A stretch of DNA of 38,255 bases, taken from positions 1 to 38,255 of IMG/VR virus record IMGVR_UViG_3300037337_000195; one strand, given 5' to 3'. The notes beneath the pieces were generated by a model. It saw nothing but the letters and a program-made list of their open reading frames with translations, was not told the DNA's origin and did not search any database. Positions 129 through 38,255 of the stretch are shown here, piece after piece. This DNA is from a virus. Position 1 is the stretch's first letter. The number at the start of each line of letters is the position of its first letter. The translations under genes were made by a program, and so were the position numbers.

Positions 129-383
129 CTAACTCTTGTGCATACGCCCAACATGGGCACGTAATGCGTGATTGTTTTTGAATTGCTTTTGACAGTCTGG
201 GCAAACAACCCCGCCGTATTCAGCCTGCGTATCTGAAGTATCTTGCTTGAAAAACGTCCGGGCATCAACACCCAAAAACACGCACTTCAAACCAATTGAA
301 CGAAGCAAATGATGTTGCATAGCAATATCATCACACGTCCAAAATTCACCAACCTTCTCGGCAATTTCATCCAGTCGGCTCAT
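129..383 (-). CDS. Small protein with a classical C2H2 zinc finger
   Basis: The 84-residue product ends in a C2H2 finger, C61-x2-C64-x12-H77-x4-H82, with the hydrophobic pattern of the classical fold (F68, L74). The spacing is the eukaryotic-type x12, unlike the x9 of bacterial Ros/MucR proteins. The first 60 residues match nothing I know. Likely role by inference: a nucleic-acid-binding early protein. It overlaps the preceding Cys-rich gene by 17 bases, so the two are probably translated together. The finger is certain as a motif; what it binds is unknown. Confidence 0.8.
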   Translation of the reverse strand: MSRLDEIAEKVGEFWTCDDIAMQHHLLRSIGLKCVFLGVDARTFFKQDTSDTQAEYGGVVCPDCQKQFKNNHALRAHVGRMHKS

Positions 384-567
384 CGCACACCTCCTTTTCT
401 GAATAATTATTGCAACTCAAAGCGTCTGTTTTGAAGACGTGGTCACGTACAGTCTGGTCTTTGCAAAACACGTAGCAAAGCGTTTCAACCTTTTGCCCGT
501 TTTTATCAGCGAAACCCTGCTGACCGCCCGAGTAAGCGTGGTGAATACATTTTCCGCAATCTTTCAT
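367..567 (-). CDS. Small Cys-rich protein, probably metal-binding
   Basis: This 66-residue protein starts MKDCGKCIHH and has six cysteines (residues 4, 7, 31, 35, 52, 61) plus His9 and His10, which suggests a zinc site. No family is recognised. I chose the ATG at 567; the frame is open further upstream to a GTG, but that lies in the conserved end of the repeat region and would make an unconvincing N-terminus. It is the first gene downstream of the repeat-rich gap and overlaps the zinc-finger gene. Confidence 0.7.
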   Translation of the reverse strand: MKDCGKCIHHAYSGGQQGFADKNGQKVETLCYVFCKDQTVRDHVFKTDALSCNNYSEKEVCDEPTG

Positions 568-600: not shown

Positions 601-1045
601 AAAACTCCCCACCTAAAAAGCGGGTTCAAATAATGCAATTTCTTAGAATCGTTATTTGTAAAACTCTTACAGTAAGTAAGTTAAGTTTTTGATTCTCAAA
701 ATAATTACTGGGGAATCTACTGGGGAAAAGTGAGGAATTTCAACACCTTCCAATTACGCAAATACCTACTATTCAGCGTTTTATAATTTTTTCTTTTTTC
801 CTCACTTTTCCCCACCTCACTGGGGAAAAGTGAGGAAATTTAAATAAATCATAAACGTCTTATTATCAGTACGCTAAATTCGCCACGCTCCTCATTTCTC
901 CTCACTTTTCCCCAGTAAACTCCCCACTTGCTTTGTACTGATAATCAGCACTTTACAAAACCGTTGTATTATTCTAATACGCTCAAAGTGCTATAAATCA
1001 GGCAATTACAGCGTTTTGCTAAAGTCGGGTCAGGTGGGGAGTTTT
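601..1045. other. Repeat-packed noncoding region, candidate phage replication origin
   Basis: No convincing gene lies here. The region is bounded by a perfect 14-bp inverted repeat, AAAACTCCCCACCT at 601-614 and its complement at 1032-1045, with a partial third copy at 917-927. Between them lie several copies of an 18-base element in both orientations and two further inverted pairs: 862-872 with 935-945, and 948-954 with 985-991. It directly follows the DUF3987 ATPase gene, a position where phages often carry an origin. Origin function is inference; a MITE-like element or a regulatory region is possible. Confidence 0.6.
719..916. repeat. Family of 18-base iteron-like repeats in both orientations
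   Basis: ACTGGGGAAAAGTGAGGA occurs at 719-736 and 819-836 on the plus strand and, inverted, at 899-916. A near copy (last two bases differ) is inverted at 799-816, so 799-836 forms a nested palindrome. A truncated copy, ACTGGGGAA, lies at 707-715. Two orientations and partial copies are typical of iterons or of binding sites for an origin protein. They lie outside any gene. Confidence 0.85.
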
Positions 1046-3252: not shown

Positions 3253-3437
3253 CCCGCTACCTCCCTTTTCAAGAATGTTATTGACGGCTTCCAGTCGCTT
3301 TTTTCGAGGCAATAGGTACACGTATATTTAATTTGTCCCGCATCTGGGCAGACTTCTACGTGCGTTCTTTTCCCGCATTTCGGACATACTACGATGTCTC
3401 GGAAAAGAGGTAGGTTATGTGTTTCATCTGTTTTCAT
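3249..3437 (-). CDS. Small zinc-ribbon protein
   Basis: The 62-residue product has two CxxC knuckles, C18PKC21 and C40TYC43, 18 residues apart, which is a zinc ribbon. Such short ribbons in phage early operons often bind nucleic acid or protein partners. Both ends overlap their neighbours as ATGA. Confidence 0.8.
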   Translation of the reverse strand: MKTDETHNLPLFRDIVVCPKCGKRTHVEVCPDAGQIKYTCTYCLEKSDWKPSITFLKREVAG

Positions 3438-3796
3438 CGCATCGGGATTAGTTCGTTCATAGTTCTTCCTTCAATTTTATCCTTAATTGCTACCAAAAAC
3501 TTTATGGAGATTTCAGTTTTACCTGTGCAGCTTATTATCTGTGTTGCTAAACTGATAGATTGTATAAGAAGCAGCTCAGGCTTGTAGTTTTTCGTCACAA
3601 AACCGTCTGGAGTCTGCGATATGTATACTTTCTTCGCAGCTTCATCAACTATAAAACTAACCTTATCACCTAACTTTAGCCCGAGCCGTCTTACCGCTCC
3701 AGCCGAAAATTGTAGTTGCCCACTTTTTTTGTTAATTCGGATTGTTGGATCTCCTTTCCGCCGGATACCAATACTATCAGGAGTTAATTCTTTCAT
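3434..3796 (-). CDS. AbrB/SpoVT-like DNA-binding protein
   Basis: Residues 15-60 (IRINKKSGQLQFSAGAVRRL, then GLKLGDKVSFIVDEAAKKVYI) fit the swapped-hairpin fold of AbrB-type regulators: two short strands, a helix, and a GDKV turn. The C-terminal half is of unknown type. The family usually acts as dimers on DNA; here it could be an early-late switch factor. The fold call is from pattern only and could be wrong. It is translationally coupled on both sides. Confidence 0.6.
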   Translation of the reverse strand: MKELTPDSIGIRRKGDPTIRINKKSGQLQFSAGAVRRLGLKLGDKVSFIVDEAAKKVYISQTPDGFVTKNYKPELLLIQSISLATQIISCTGKTEISIKFLVAIKDKIEGRTMNELIPMR

Positions 3797-4609: not shown

Positions 4610-4640
4610 CAAATGTAATATAAAATTACATTATGTCAAA
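4610..4640 (-). promoter_or_regulatory. Early leftward promoter (Bacteroidetes type)
   Basis: Read on the minus strand, TTTG (4640-4637) is followed by exactly 19 bases and TACATTTG (4617-4610), which matches the Bacteroidetes sigma consensus TTTG-N19-TAnnTTTG. It drives the early operon and overlaps the operator repeats, as expected for repressor control. Confidence 0.8.
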
Positions 4641-4652
4641 ATAAATTACATT
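4612..4652. promoter_or_regulatory. Operator with three ATTACATT half-sites
   Basis: AATGTAAT (4612-4619) and ATTACATT (4625-4632) form a perfect 8-bp inverted repeat with a 5-base spacer. A third ATTACATT lies at 4645-4652, exactly 20 bases (about two helical turns) from the second. The sites cover the early promoter and precede the repressor gene, so they are the probable repressor-binding sites. Confidence 0.75.
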
Positions 4653-4666
4653 AATTATCGCTTATT

Positions 4667-5395: not shown

Positions 5396-5430
5396 GGGCA
5401 ACCGTATTGCCACCAACATTCGCCCAACAT

Positions 5431-5542
5431 TTTTTATAACTATCTAATTATTAGGCGTTTAAAATTGGCGAAAGATTCCCCGTAGGGTCACACGACCGAC
5501 TCAAAAACCGCCCACAGTACACCGTGAGGCGGTTTTTTTACG
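5431..5542. other. Candidate attP core region
   Basis: The segment lies between the left and right sets of arm-like repeats, immediately before the integrase gene, so an attP core is expected here. It contains GGTC-ACAC-GACC (5486-5497), a short inverted pair that could be a crossover core, and the terminator hairpin. No second copy of this segment is visible in the window, which fits an unintegrated genome. Confidence 0.4.
5503..5539 (+). terminator. Terminator after the repressor unit
   Basis: AAAAACCGCC and GGCGGTTTTT form a 10-bp stem with a 15-base loop, followed by more T residues. It ends the repressor and DUF4177-like unit before the integrase; the A-run on the other side makes it potentially bidirectional. 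Confidence 0.85.
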
Positions 5543-5596
5543 CCAACATCTGACCAACATCCGCCGAAACGCACCTTTTCCCAACATCTGACCAAC

Positions 5597-6739
5597 ATGA
5601 AATACAGCCAACGGTTTGACATCCAGAAGCACCGCACAAAGACCGACGGCACCGCTCTGATATATATCGAAGTAAGGATCGAGGGGAAAAGGTTACGCGT
5701 ACCAACTGATCTGCATTGGCCAGTGCAGCATTTTGATAAGAAAATACTGCCACGGCACCGAAATGATAAGTTGCACGAAGATTATACCAGGCAATTAGTA
5801 AGGATCGAGGGGGAAGTCAACGAAGTCTTTATCTGGGCACGCCTGAGCAACGTCGAACTAACGCCCAAGCTTTTTGAAGCGGAGCTAAAAAACAAGTACA
5901 GCAGGTCTGACTTCGTGCAATTTTTCCAAAGAAGTTTGAACGAACGCAAACTGAAAGGCGGCATCAAACCCGCTACTTTCAAAAATCAGTTGAACGCTTA
6001 TGCTACGCTCATACGCTTCACCGAAAATTTGCCGTTCAACGAAATATCTCTCGACTGGCTCGACACGTACAAATTTTGGCTTATTAATAAGGAACAACTG
6101 AAACTAAGCAGCGTTGAAACAAAGCTGAGAGTATTGCGTACTTACATGAACCTCGCAAAAACTCAAGGTATTCACTTCAAATACCCGTTCGACGGCTTCC
6201 GAATGCCTAAGGTCGGGGAAACGTTGCGGTTTCTTTCCGAGCAGGAATTTCAGCTAATCTTACAGCTCTACAAATCGAAGCATTTCGCCGAGCATTACGA
6301 AACGCCACTTCGGATATTTCTTTTTTCGTGTTATACGGGTTTGAGAATATCAGACATGAAAAAGCTTCGCCAATCAAATATTCAAAACGGCAAAATTGTT
6401 TGGAGCATGGAAAAGAAACGGATTGACGCCGCTAAAAATATGGAGATTCCTGTGCACCCGTTCGCCAGCAGCCTGACTAATCAAGCCCGTGGCTCTTTGT
6501 TGCCGCAACTTTCCGAACAGAAACTGAACGAGAACCTCAAAAAAATCAGCTACGAACTCAAAATCAACAAAGAAATTTCAATGCACTGGGCACGCCACAC
6601 CTTTGCTACCCGATTTCTTCGCCATGGTGGCCGGCTTGAAGTGTTGCAACAGCTACTTGGTCACGATAGCATCATCACAACTATGAAGTATGTGCACGTG
6701 GATAATCAGGATATGAAGCAAGTGATGATACTGACTTAA
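5597..6739 (+). CDS. int: Tyrosine recombinase, phage integrase
   Basis: This 380-residue protein has an N-terminal arm-binding domain (about 1-90), a SAM-like core-binding domain (about 105-195) and a catalytic domain. The full catalytic set is visible: R250 (TGLR), a Lys at 273-274, H330 and R333 (HWARH), H356 (LLGHD) and nucleophile Y365 (KYVHV). Architecture and length are those of Bacteroidetes temperate phages and integrative elements. It should insert the phage at an attB site. It converges on, and overlaps by 59 bases, the LytTR gene, so late transcription could make antisense RNA to its 3' end. Confidence 0.95.
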   Translation: MKYSQRFDIQKHRTKTDGTALIYIEVRIEGKRLRVPTDLHWPVQHFDKKILPRHRNDKLHEDYTRQLVRIEGEVNEVFIWARLSNVELTPKLFEAELKNKYSRSDFVQFFQRSLNERKLKGGIKPATFKNQLNAYATLIRFTENLPFNEISLDWLDTYKFWLINKEQLKLSSVETKLRVLRTYMNLAKTQGIHFKYPFDGFRMPKVGETLRFLSEQEFQLILQLYKSKHFAEHYETPLRIFLFSCYTGLRISDMKKLRQSNIQNGKIVWSMEKKRIDAAKNMEIPVHPFASSLTNQARGSLLPQLSEQKLNENLKKISYELKINKEISMHWARHTFATRFLRHGGRLEVLQQLLGHDSIITTMKYVHVDNQDMKQVMILT

Positions 6740-9948: not shown

Positions 9949-12900
9949 TTCATGGCATCGTTATGGATTTCAGACATTCGAGTTTCGTAATTGTGCACGG
10001 CATCGTGGACCCAAACCGCTGTTGCGGGTTGAGCAAGGCGATGAAGTACTTTTGAAAGCAGCTCCTTGACATCTTCGTTTGACACGGAGCTGCTTTCAAA
10101 AGTGGTGGCACGGTGGCTCAGGCTAGTACTATTACCATTATTACTTTGGCTGGGATTATTACCTACGGTGGTGGGTGGAACGGCGGTAGTGGACGTATAG
10201 CGGTAGGGGTTTTCGGAGAGGCGTTTTTGCTCTAATAGTTTGACGGTATCGAAAACCATGGGGTCGTTCAACGCCCAGGCTGGGATTACGTATTCCTGTC
10301 CATGCTCGCCCAATGTGGCGGCGTGGGTGCCGTGGCTGGTAAAACCACCCGAAAAATACGGGATTGGTGTGGCGGCAATTGCGGCGGTCTGGATTGCTCC
10401 GGTGATTCCGGCGGCAATTGCAAAGGGAGTTGCAAGTGCTCCGGATGGTGGGCCTTTGAGGGCGTTCATTACGGCAAGTGCTGTATTAATAATCGACGTA
10501 GTAATCGCTTGAGCCTTCTCGCGAGCTGCTTGTTTTTTGCGAAGCTGGTCTATTTGTTCGTTTGTTTTTTCTTCGAGACTCACTTTTTGAGCGGCGTATT
10601 GCGTTTCGGTAAGAATGCCCGCTGCTCGCTTGTTTTCGAGCACGTCCATTTCTTTGTTTGCGTTTTGTTCTATACTTTGAGATTGCCGCTCAGAAATCGC
10701 ATTCATTAGTCCGATTATGCTGCTCATTGCATTCATGAAATAATTGGCGATCTGCTGATAACTTTCCATCTGCTTTTGCAGAAGTTCTGCCTTTGTTTTG
10801 GAGTCTTTCTCCACTGCTTCTTTTCCGGATTTGATTATTGCATTGTTTGAAGCAGCAAGGATTACGTTTCTTTCGTTAGCGTATTGATCTGTGATTTGAG
10901 TAATTTCCTGCTCTTTGTTCAGTGCGATTTGGGCGAGAGCGGTGGCGTTATCTTTCGCGGCAATAGTTTCTTTTGCGTATTTTGCGGAGACATCTGCAAT
11001 CGCGTTGTCTTCTTTTTCGTAAGATAATAGTAACATCATTTCTCGCACTTGAACGAGATCATTACTGCCTTCTGCGTTTTCGAGTTCGGCTTTGAGAGCG
11101 GCAATTCTGCCATTGACAATTAGGGTTGCGGCTTCGTTTTGGGCGGCTTCGATTTGTTCTTTCTGCTGCTTTTGATGTTTTTCGTGTAGTTCGTCTACTT
11201 CACTTGTGTAGTTACGTTCTTCGAGAACTTTCTCCGCTGCGATTATTTGTTTCTGTTGCGAGTTTAGATTTTTTTCTTCTCCGAATTGTTCGGCAATTTG
11301 AAGCAGTTTTTTTTGATGTGCCGCCGCTTGTATTAATAATTGTCTATCGAGCCCTTCGGCATCTTGTAAGTTGCTTTGAACAGCGAGTTCGGCTTTGAGT
11401 TCGAGTAGTTTTTTTTCTTCGGCTTTGAGTTGTGTTTGTTTTTTTTCGGCTGCTTTACTAGGGTTTTTAACTTTTTCGGGATCAACGCTATTTCCGTCAA
11501 CGGTTGTTGTTGTTGTTGTGGTGGTGGTGGCGGTGGTGGGTCGGGATAGGCCACTCCGTGACGGGGTGGCGTTAGCGTCTTGGATCTTCATGTAATCGCC
11601 ACGGAGACCATCAAGCCGAATCTTTGTATTTTGTATTTCGTCGGCGAGTTGGCGGCGTTCTGATTCAAGTTTTTGGATTTCGGAGGTGGTAAGGTCGGCT
11701 GAATACAAAGCTCCGCCCCCTGTACCAGCAGATACCCGCAATTCTTTGCCGGATTGAATTAGTTTATTGATTGATTTTAGGCGGGCATCATTCATCACGA
11801 TTTCCTTCTCTGTGATTTGGATTGCCTCTTTATTGTTGAATAACAATAGTTGTTTTTGCACCGCGATAAAATCGTTTACTTTTCCGCGATTAATATCTAA
11901 GGCGGTGCCGTACTGGTCAAACGCCGTGCCCGCTCCTGGCACCAATGCCGTTATTTGCGAGATGACGGTTTTGAGTTCGTCTTGTTCTTCTTTTGATAGT
12001 TGCACTTTTGCTTTCAAGGCTTCATGCCGCCCCATTAGCGAGTTGAGCGACTTTTCGTTTTCTTCAAATTCGGCTTTCTTTTCGAAGAAATCTTGCATGG
12101 CAAGGTCGGCATCTGAAACCACGCCGATCATCTTTGCAAAGCCGAATACGAGCGTATCTACGAAACCTTTGATTGCTCCGTTTTGCCAGAAGCCCGCCCA
12201 CCAGTTGCCAATTTTGTCAAGGATGGCAGCGGTGGTGGTGTTTTTCGTGTTGAATTCGTCGAGAACGGAAGTCCCTTTTGTGTATTCGGCATTTGCGAGG
12301 GCTTGCTGTTCTTTAACCATCTCGACATTGTTTGCGAGTGTTAAGAAAACGGCGGCACCACGGGAGCCGTCAATCCCGATGTCGGAGAGTTTGTTGAGAA
12401 AATCTTCTGAAGACTTTGAGCTGGCTTTCAGGTTTTCGAGGAATGAAATAAACCCGGCGTTGGTGCCTTTTTCGCCAATCATTTCTTTGAGCGAGCCACC
12501 AACCATGCCGGATGCCTTCTCGAACTTCGCGGAGTCTTTTACAAAATCTATGAAGAAATTTGAGAGAGCGGTACCGGACATTTCGACCTGCAAACCGAGC
12601 GAATCAAGTACCGCACCGTAGCCGAGTATTTCGGGAGCGGAAACCTTGGCGGTGACGGCGGTACCGGCCAACCGAGCGGCGAAGTCTACAAGGTATTGTT
12701 CGCCGGCTTCGGAGTTTGCCCCGAGCGAGTTAATTGCCGAAGCAATATTTAACATTTCAACTTTGTAGGCATTCGATATTTTACCGAGTTGCAGCACGGC
12801 GTCAGCTCCGAGGTCTTCGCCGAGTGCCACTTTGATTTTGTCTGCTTCTTCTACGAATTTGGCGACATTTTCCACGCCTTGAATACCGAGTTTTCCGGCT

Positions 12901-37726: not shown

Positions 37727-38012
37727 GGTTAGATAATACAATAGAATATTGGATTAGGTGTAGAAATAAAGAACATTTATAGCCGATTTGTAGTATAAAA
37801 ATAATCATTATTTATTACGTGTCATATTGACACGTAATAAATAAACGGCAAGCAGGTGAAATATTTGTTTAGTAAGATTTCAAGAATGGCGGAATTGCGG
37901 GATATTTTGAGCGGCAGAAGTTTTTTTAGAAGCTACTGACTCGCTGTGTACTGTATATCTGTACCAAACTTCATTTCACCGCCCAATTGTATTATTCATA
38001 GCGTATAGACCT
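37727..38012. other. Intergenic region with the presumed late promoter
   Basis: No supported gene lies between the late operon start and the early terminator. It holds the large palindrome at 37808-37844. A 17-codon plus-strand frame starts at 37886 but is too short to call. No TTTG/TAnnTTTG promoter is visible, so late genes may need a phage activator. Confidence 0.5.
37808..37844. promoter_or_regulatory. Perfect 17-bp palindrome upstream of the late operon
   Basis: TTATTTATTACGTGTCA, a TAT centre, and the exact complement. Its ACGTGTCA/TGACACGT core is GC-rich between A/T flanks. It lies 82 bases before the late operon start, so a binding site for a late regulator is likely; a bidirectional terminator is the alternative. 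Confidence 0.75.
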
Positions 38013-38046: not shown

Positions 38047-38082
38047 CCAACCCTATTCTAACCTAAATGATAATAACACCGC

Positions 38083-38139
38083 TAACAGCCGCTTAACAAC
38101 ATTCTCCTACCGTCGAACGCTCGCAAAGCTTAGTGTTAT
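38083..38139 (-). repeat. attC-like element 3 (57 nt)
   Basis: On the minus strand it starts ATAACACTAAGCTTTG and ends AAGCGGCTGTTA. Both arms match element 2 (ATAACAC-AAGCTTT and AAGCGGCTGTTA), while the centre differs. The TAA stop of the small gene lies inside its first arm. It is followed by the terminator. Confidence 0.65.
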
Positions 38140-38255
38140 ATGCAATTATCAAATAACCTTGGTTCATCATCTGCCCACCACTTAAAACTACCTTTTACAT
38201 CAGTTGTTAATACCCAAACACCATCTTGCTCATCCCACTGCTCTATATATCCAAA
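38136..38255 (-). CDS. 3' part of a small early gene (begins across the junction)
   Basis: An open frame enters from the right edge and ends after 39 residues (FGYIEQWDEQDGVWVLTTDV, later FKWWADDEPRLFDNCI). It is acidic and Trp-rich. Its TAA lies in the first arm of the attC-like element. Joined to the 19 codons at positions 57-1 it makes a 58-residue protein in frame. Confidence 0.6.
   Translation of the reverse strand, partial: FGYIEQWDEQDGVWVLTTDVKGSFKWWADDEPRLFDNCI

Follow-up and report, generated by a model that had tools for sequence, protein, structure and literature searches.

The repeat-built module at positions 601–1045 of the window (the whole 38,255-bp stretch analysed, a virus record whose gene content is that of a temperate tailed phage) is probably the phage's replication origin, and the DUF3987 protein encoded beside it the predicted ligand, with both binding and replication deduced from sequence and comparison. 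It is best read as an origin of the PICI/SaPI layout, apparently served by a helicase of another family and elaborated into a doubled, nested variant with iteron spacings of 10 and 12 bp (Table 1). A tyrosine integrase, a CI-like repressor, a tape-measure protein and a head protease are recognisable in the window; no primase gene was recognised in it, no terminase genes were identified and no tRNA was found.

Table 1. Features of the predicted origin and of the two genes that flank it (positions in the window).
Feature	Positions	Strand	Basis or remark
Small downstream gene (MKDCGKC...), likely ATG start 567	367–567	-	ORF list and translation
Whole iteron module, predicted replication origin	601–1045	.	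Repeats, iteron density, fold
Left outer iteron and extended inverted-repeat arm AAAACTCCCCACCT	601–614	-	Perfect inverted copy at 1032–1045
Three TGRGGA (709, 721, 731; spacing 12, 10), outer arm of unit 1	709–737	+	
Unit 1 spacer, 60 bp, 72% AT, proposed melting site	738–797	.	Interior unlike that of unit 2
Iteron pair (804, 814 on minus), inner arm of unit 1	798–814	-	
Iteron pair (821, 831), inner arm of unit 2	819–836	+	Exactly 100 bp after 719–736
Unit 2 spacer, 62 bp, 68% AT	837–898	.	
Four iterons (894, 904, 914, 926; spacing 10, 10, 12), outer arm of unit 2	889–926	-	
Right outer iteron and extended inverted-repeat arm	1032–1045	+	~22 bp from the DUF3987 stop codon
DUF3987 (PF13148) putative replicative helicase, 467 aa	1067–2470	-	Pfam, PHROG

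The hexamer TGRGGA occurs 13 times between 560 and 1066, where 0.37 occurrences are expected; the rest of the window (37.7 kb) has another 13, which makes a 75-fold difference in density, and arrays of it are absent elsewhere in the window. Along the module its orientations run - / +++ / -- / ++ / ---- / +, and within groups the spacing is 10 or 12 bp. Two such hexamers make up the 16-mer TGGGGAAAAGTGAGGA, of which there are exactly four exact copies, at 721(+), 799(-), 821(+) and 899(-); at up to three mismatches it has five matches in the window against 0.37 expected, a number reached by 0 of 100 shuffles. The 18-base repeats in both orientations (at least four) reported in an earlier note on this DNA are real: as full 18-mers they are exact at 719, 819 and 899–916, and the copy at 799 has 16–17 bases in common. 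The same note had correctly placed a perfect 14-bp inverted repeat at the borders of the 445 bp; this repeat (86% when extended to 22 nt) is the outermost iteron pair plus some flanking identity. One of the two further inverted pairs it named is sound, an 11-bp pair at 862–872/935–945 that lies within a 21-nt pair at 81%, whereas the other, at 938–954/985–1001, is weaker (76%) and could be chance. Its statement that all of this lies outside genes holds if the small minus-strand ORF uses the ATG at 567, and fails if that ORF starts at the GTG at 612.

The four identical 16-mers form two units of ~96 bp, the first from 719 and the second, exactly 100 bp further on, from 819. Each consists of perfectly complementary arms of 17–18 bp and a 60- or 62-bp spacer, so that opposed iteron groups flank an AT-rich stretch (72% and 68% AT, compared with 56% for the window), an arrangement that is present twice. 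The 17-bp arm 721–737 pairs with 798–814; a longer one of 28 nt, 709–736, has its partner at 899–926. The spacer of unit 2 contains one arm of the 11-bp inverted repeat, and the minus-strand iteron 889–894 sits at its right end. Overall, the two units share 58% identity: their iterons are identical, whereas the interiors of the spacers agree at 14 of 48 positions, about the chance level, as expected if the iterons alone are constrained. Gene conversion between the arms could contribute.

This architecture suggests a mechanism in which the DUF3987 protein would bind its own iterons through a C-terminal helix–turn–helix (HTH), two helicase assemblies would form on the opposed iteron groups either side of an AT-rich spacer, and the assembled helicases would open that spacer and load onto opposite strands, replication starting after induction. 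The two 96-bp units would then constitute a twin origin, with the outer single iterons as auxiliary sites. GC skew had been proposed as a check, and does not single out this site: the cumulative minimum falls at ~4–6.5 kb, away from the module, in a curve that is confounded by gene strand. The skew changes sign at ~4–7 kb, though most genes to either side of this stretch have minus orientation.

As single-stranded DNA the module folds at -83.3 kcal/mol, compared with -37.6 ± 3.8 for shuffles (z = -12); this strong fold follows from the inverted iterons and is by itself no evidence for a hairpin in vivo. Together with the perfect outer inverted repeat, such folding is what would recommend the other reading offered in the earlier note, a MITE-like insertion, or more generally a non-coding element that is mobile. 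The searches speak against it. An exact 17-mer gave 46 hits in 84,980 species genomes, all single-copy and in unrelated taxa; a 15-mer gave nine single hits in IMG/VR, those inspected being in unrelated contexts, and L052, the best among the chance neighbours, falls inside an integrase-like coding stretch. Whole-module blastn against phages and plasmids returned no significant match, an Rfam search had no match, and the proposed search for the unit elsewhere turned up no second copy in the 84,980 genomes or in the viral, phage and plasmid collections. By eye, no flanking direct repeat indicative of a target duplication is seen at 590–600/1046–1056, and the outer repeats are the iteron itself. 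Because the collections searched yielded no second copy and a clear target duplication is not seen, we regard a mobile insertion as highly improbable.

The neighbouring gene does encode a DUF3987 protein, as the earlier note had it: PF13148 is the sole match, at 97 bits (cut-off 27), and PHROG assigns 'DNA helicase', so that the presumed initiator stands outside the PICI Rep families (DUF927, D5/Primase_Cterm). The HTH in which the protein was said to end is plausible and only weakly detected, around residues 424–455 (HTH_30, E 0.03–0.04; HTH_8, E 0.17–0.26), and it is not of the GxYxK-type winged-helix kind that is common among relatives. PDB sequence searches found no relative, and a structure model built from eight sequences (pLDDT 47) was too poor for a fold search.

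Iterons read by the carboxy-terminal part of a helicase have precedents. In phage P4, ori and crr contain iterons in both orientations that are recognised by the C-terminal part of the helicase–primase; P4 differs from the window in its protein family and in having two separate sites. The layout also matches that of PICIs and SaPIs. The C-terminal domain of SaPI Rep acts on iterons directly downstream of its own gene (PMC7581432), and in PICIs the origin comes immediately 3' of rep and has an AT-rich region between two iteron sets; a tested rep–ori segment is able to replicate (PMC6092414). Likewise, the array in the window is directly 3' of the helicase gene, ending 22 bp from the DUF3987 stop codon, has short iterons in opposed sets to either side of an AT-rich stretch and adjoins a helicase with a C-terminal DNA-binding part (here a weak HTH match with predicted binding). 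By contrast, the window's initiator is a DUF3987 protein and not a DUF927 or D5/Primase_Cterm protein, its element is a phage, the spacing is 10/12 bp in two nested units, and origin function is predicted. Cch2 of SCCmec binds specifically to repeats of the intergenic region downstream of its gene (PMC7581432), a similar setting of direct and inverted repeats behind a helicase gene; however, Cch2 belongs to another helicase family, a direct-repeat region of 23 bp that has three 5-nt iterons is enough for it, and its origin is itself putative. For the archaeal plasmid pRN1, a stem-loop of 100 bp, made of a 21-nt stem and a 58-nt loop and situated downstream of the replication gene, is required (PMC4234260). 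These dimensions are near the 17–18-bp stems and 60–62-bp spacers of the window, but pRN1 has a single stem-loop and a primase–SF3 helicase protein. As for the family, the published prediction for DUF3987 is a mobile-element helicase, and that for the C-terminal winged helices of related primase–helicases is that they read origins (PMC5862659). In one PICMI, a member of a family whose finder model pairs DUF3987 with DUF5906, deletion of the primase gene lowers replication (PMC10803314). The earlier note's 'phage origin of a type not described' is well supported as to the origin, by position, architecture and comparison, and right only in part as to the type, since the layout is published for PICI/SaPI and SCCmec elements.

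No close relative of the DUF3987 protein turned up when viral contigs were searched by peptide pattern, nor one of the head protease or of the L117 homologue, and genomes likewise gave none for the DUF3987 protein. As these collections yielded no close relative of the phage, DUF3987 loci were compared at large, from genomes of Bacteroidota, Pseudomonadota and Bacillota, viral contigs and plasmids, with proteins clustered at 50% identity. At E ≤ 1e-15, DUF3987 was found in 51 of 395 Bacteroidota and 48 of 398 Pseudomonadota genomes sampled (about one in eight), and in 7 of 398 from Bacillota. The 200 bp past each stop codon were examined for repeated 7-mers, direct or inverted, with p ≤ 0.01 taken as significant; the first downstream tests, in which repeats were seen close behind several DUF3987 genes, were exploratory, and held-out sets were analysed separately later. 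Significant repeats follow the stop codon in 42 of 87 clusters (17/29 in discovery, 25/58 held out), the held-out total being made up of Bacteroidota (10/25), viral (1/2), Pseudomonadota (12/23) and Bacillota (2/8) loci. The same test on other windows of these loci was positive in 3/87 mid-gene, 10/82 upstream and 5/83 far downstream, and control genes from random genome pieces scored 12/136, or 9/50 (18%) where the 3' region is non-coding. The held-out clusters exceed the control genes as a whole (Fisher p = 1e-7) and also the non-coding controls (p = 0.007).

A spacing of exactly 9 bp (5-mers, at least three matches) was present in 22 of 58 held-out clusters; for the non-coding controls the figure was 3 of 56 (p = 2e-5). 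No other offset between 6 and 15 gave a signal nearly as strong. In the significant clusters the first repeat begins a median of 8 bp past the stop, and 37 of the 42 have inverted copies. The iterons themselves vary by locus (TGGCGAAAG, TTGCAGTNN, CGACAANNN and TTGCCATNN, for example). About half of the clusters are without a significant array, and not every significant locus is a clean iteron array (poly-G/tandem repeat in L127, hairpins in L145 and L019). The window's own array gives p = 0.02 with 7-mers over 200 bp and p = 0.003 with 8-mers over 250 bp, and its 10- or 12-bp spacing departs from the 9 bp of the family. At some loci the repeats, judged by eye, seem to enter the end of the gene as repeating tripeptides (GAVGAVG in L166).

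Among the proteins compared (L094, L087 and L090), the kind of C-terminal HTH differs, being HTH_23-like in L094 and a winged helix in others, as though DUF3987 proteins could exchange the part that reads the origin. Similar HTHs were no significant guide to shared iterons in a small locus set trimmed by eye (permutation p = 0.07).

The recurrence of arrays behind DUF3987 genes at many loci also bears on whether the iterons could instead be operators, for a phage regulator or for the DUF3987 protein, that control the promoter of the downstream small genes and have no origin function. The array does occupy a gap of ~500 bp ahead of a co-directional gene, and promoter-like matches are found in it, no more often than chance would give. 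Beyond the recurrence, two observations count against such a role, which we consider unlikely: TGRGGA arrays are found nowhere else in the window, and the CI-like repressor has a different, ATGTAATATAAAATTACAT-like palindrome at its own promoter (~4611–4635). With a further TTACAT box, that palindrome makes up a candidate operator at 4611–4660, upstream of the repressor gene.

Repeats in both orientations are also known from attP and cosB. The module would accordingly have to be weighed as a recombination or packaging site, with the iterons as attP arm sites or as a cos/pac site bound by a small terminase, and if the genome is circular it has the early genes on one side and the late operon on the other. 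It is, however, ~4.5 kb away from int, and CCAACATCTGACCAACAT, at 5413–5598 just ahead of the integrase gene, makes a better attP candidate; both points count against an attP role, and the reading as a whole we find improbable. Near the integrase start, CCAACATCTGACCAACAT has two exact copies and one at 83%, candidate arm-type sites of attP.

Several other stretches of the phage genome are recorded here as observations. Positions 3–126 have 85% DNA identity to Polaribacter phage Freya (MT732464, 43980–44104); the stretch comprises a leader and the start of a small gene (MNTDNRKVETEQCTIPSV), and its conservation is unusual compared with the remaining genome. The product of 3434–3796 resembles an AbrB-type swapped-hairpin DNA-binding protein by eye, with no match in Pfam. 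A 24-nt inverted repeat (92%) with an 8-nt loop lies within the 3' part of the tape-measure gene (10048–10103). Towards the right end, where ~500 bp are non-coding, there is a perfect 17-bp inverted repeat with a 3-nt loop (TTATTTATTACGTGTCA ATA TGACACGTAATAAATAA, 37808–37844), and 38060–38150 (GCTAACAGCCGCTTAACAAC ... AGTGTTATATGC) has a faint likeness to an integron attC site that may reflect host DNA or chance.

Iterons directly 3' of the gene for a self-loading helicase are already known from PICI/SaPI and SCCmec elements. For DUF3987-linked origins, and for the doubled, nested form with 10/12-bp spacing, no description was found in the open-licence literature. Returning to the origin reading, we lean towards the view that DUF3987 proteins are self-loading initiators and make up a large family spread over phages, plasmids and mobilizable elements of different phyla, each with its own iterons directly behind the gene and usually 9 bp apart, and that the window would hold a derived, doubled 10/12-bp twin origin. 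The annotation of DUF3987 goes no further than a protein of unknown function. If the rule is true, the origin of a DUF3987 element would lie within tens of bases past the stop codon, the domain would become a testable initiator, and the origins of many phages and mobilizable elements would be readable from sequence.
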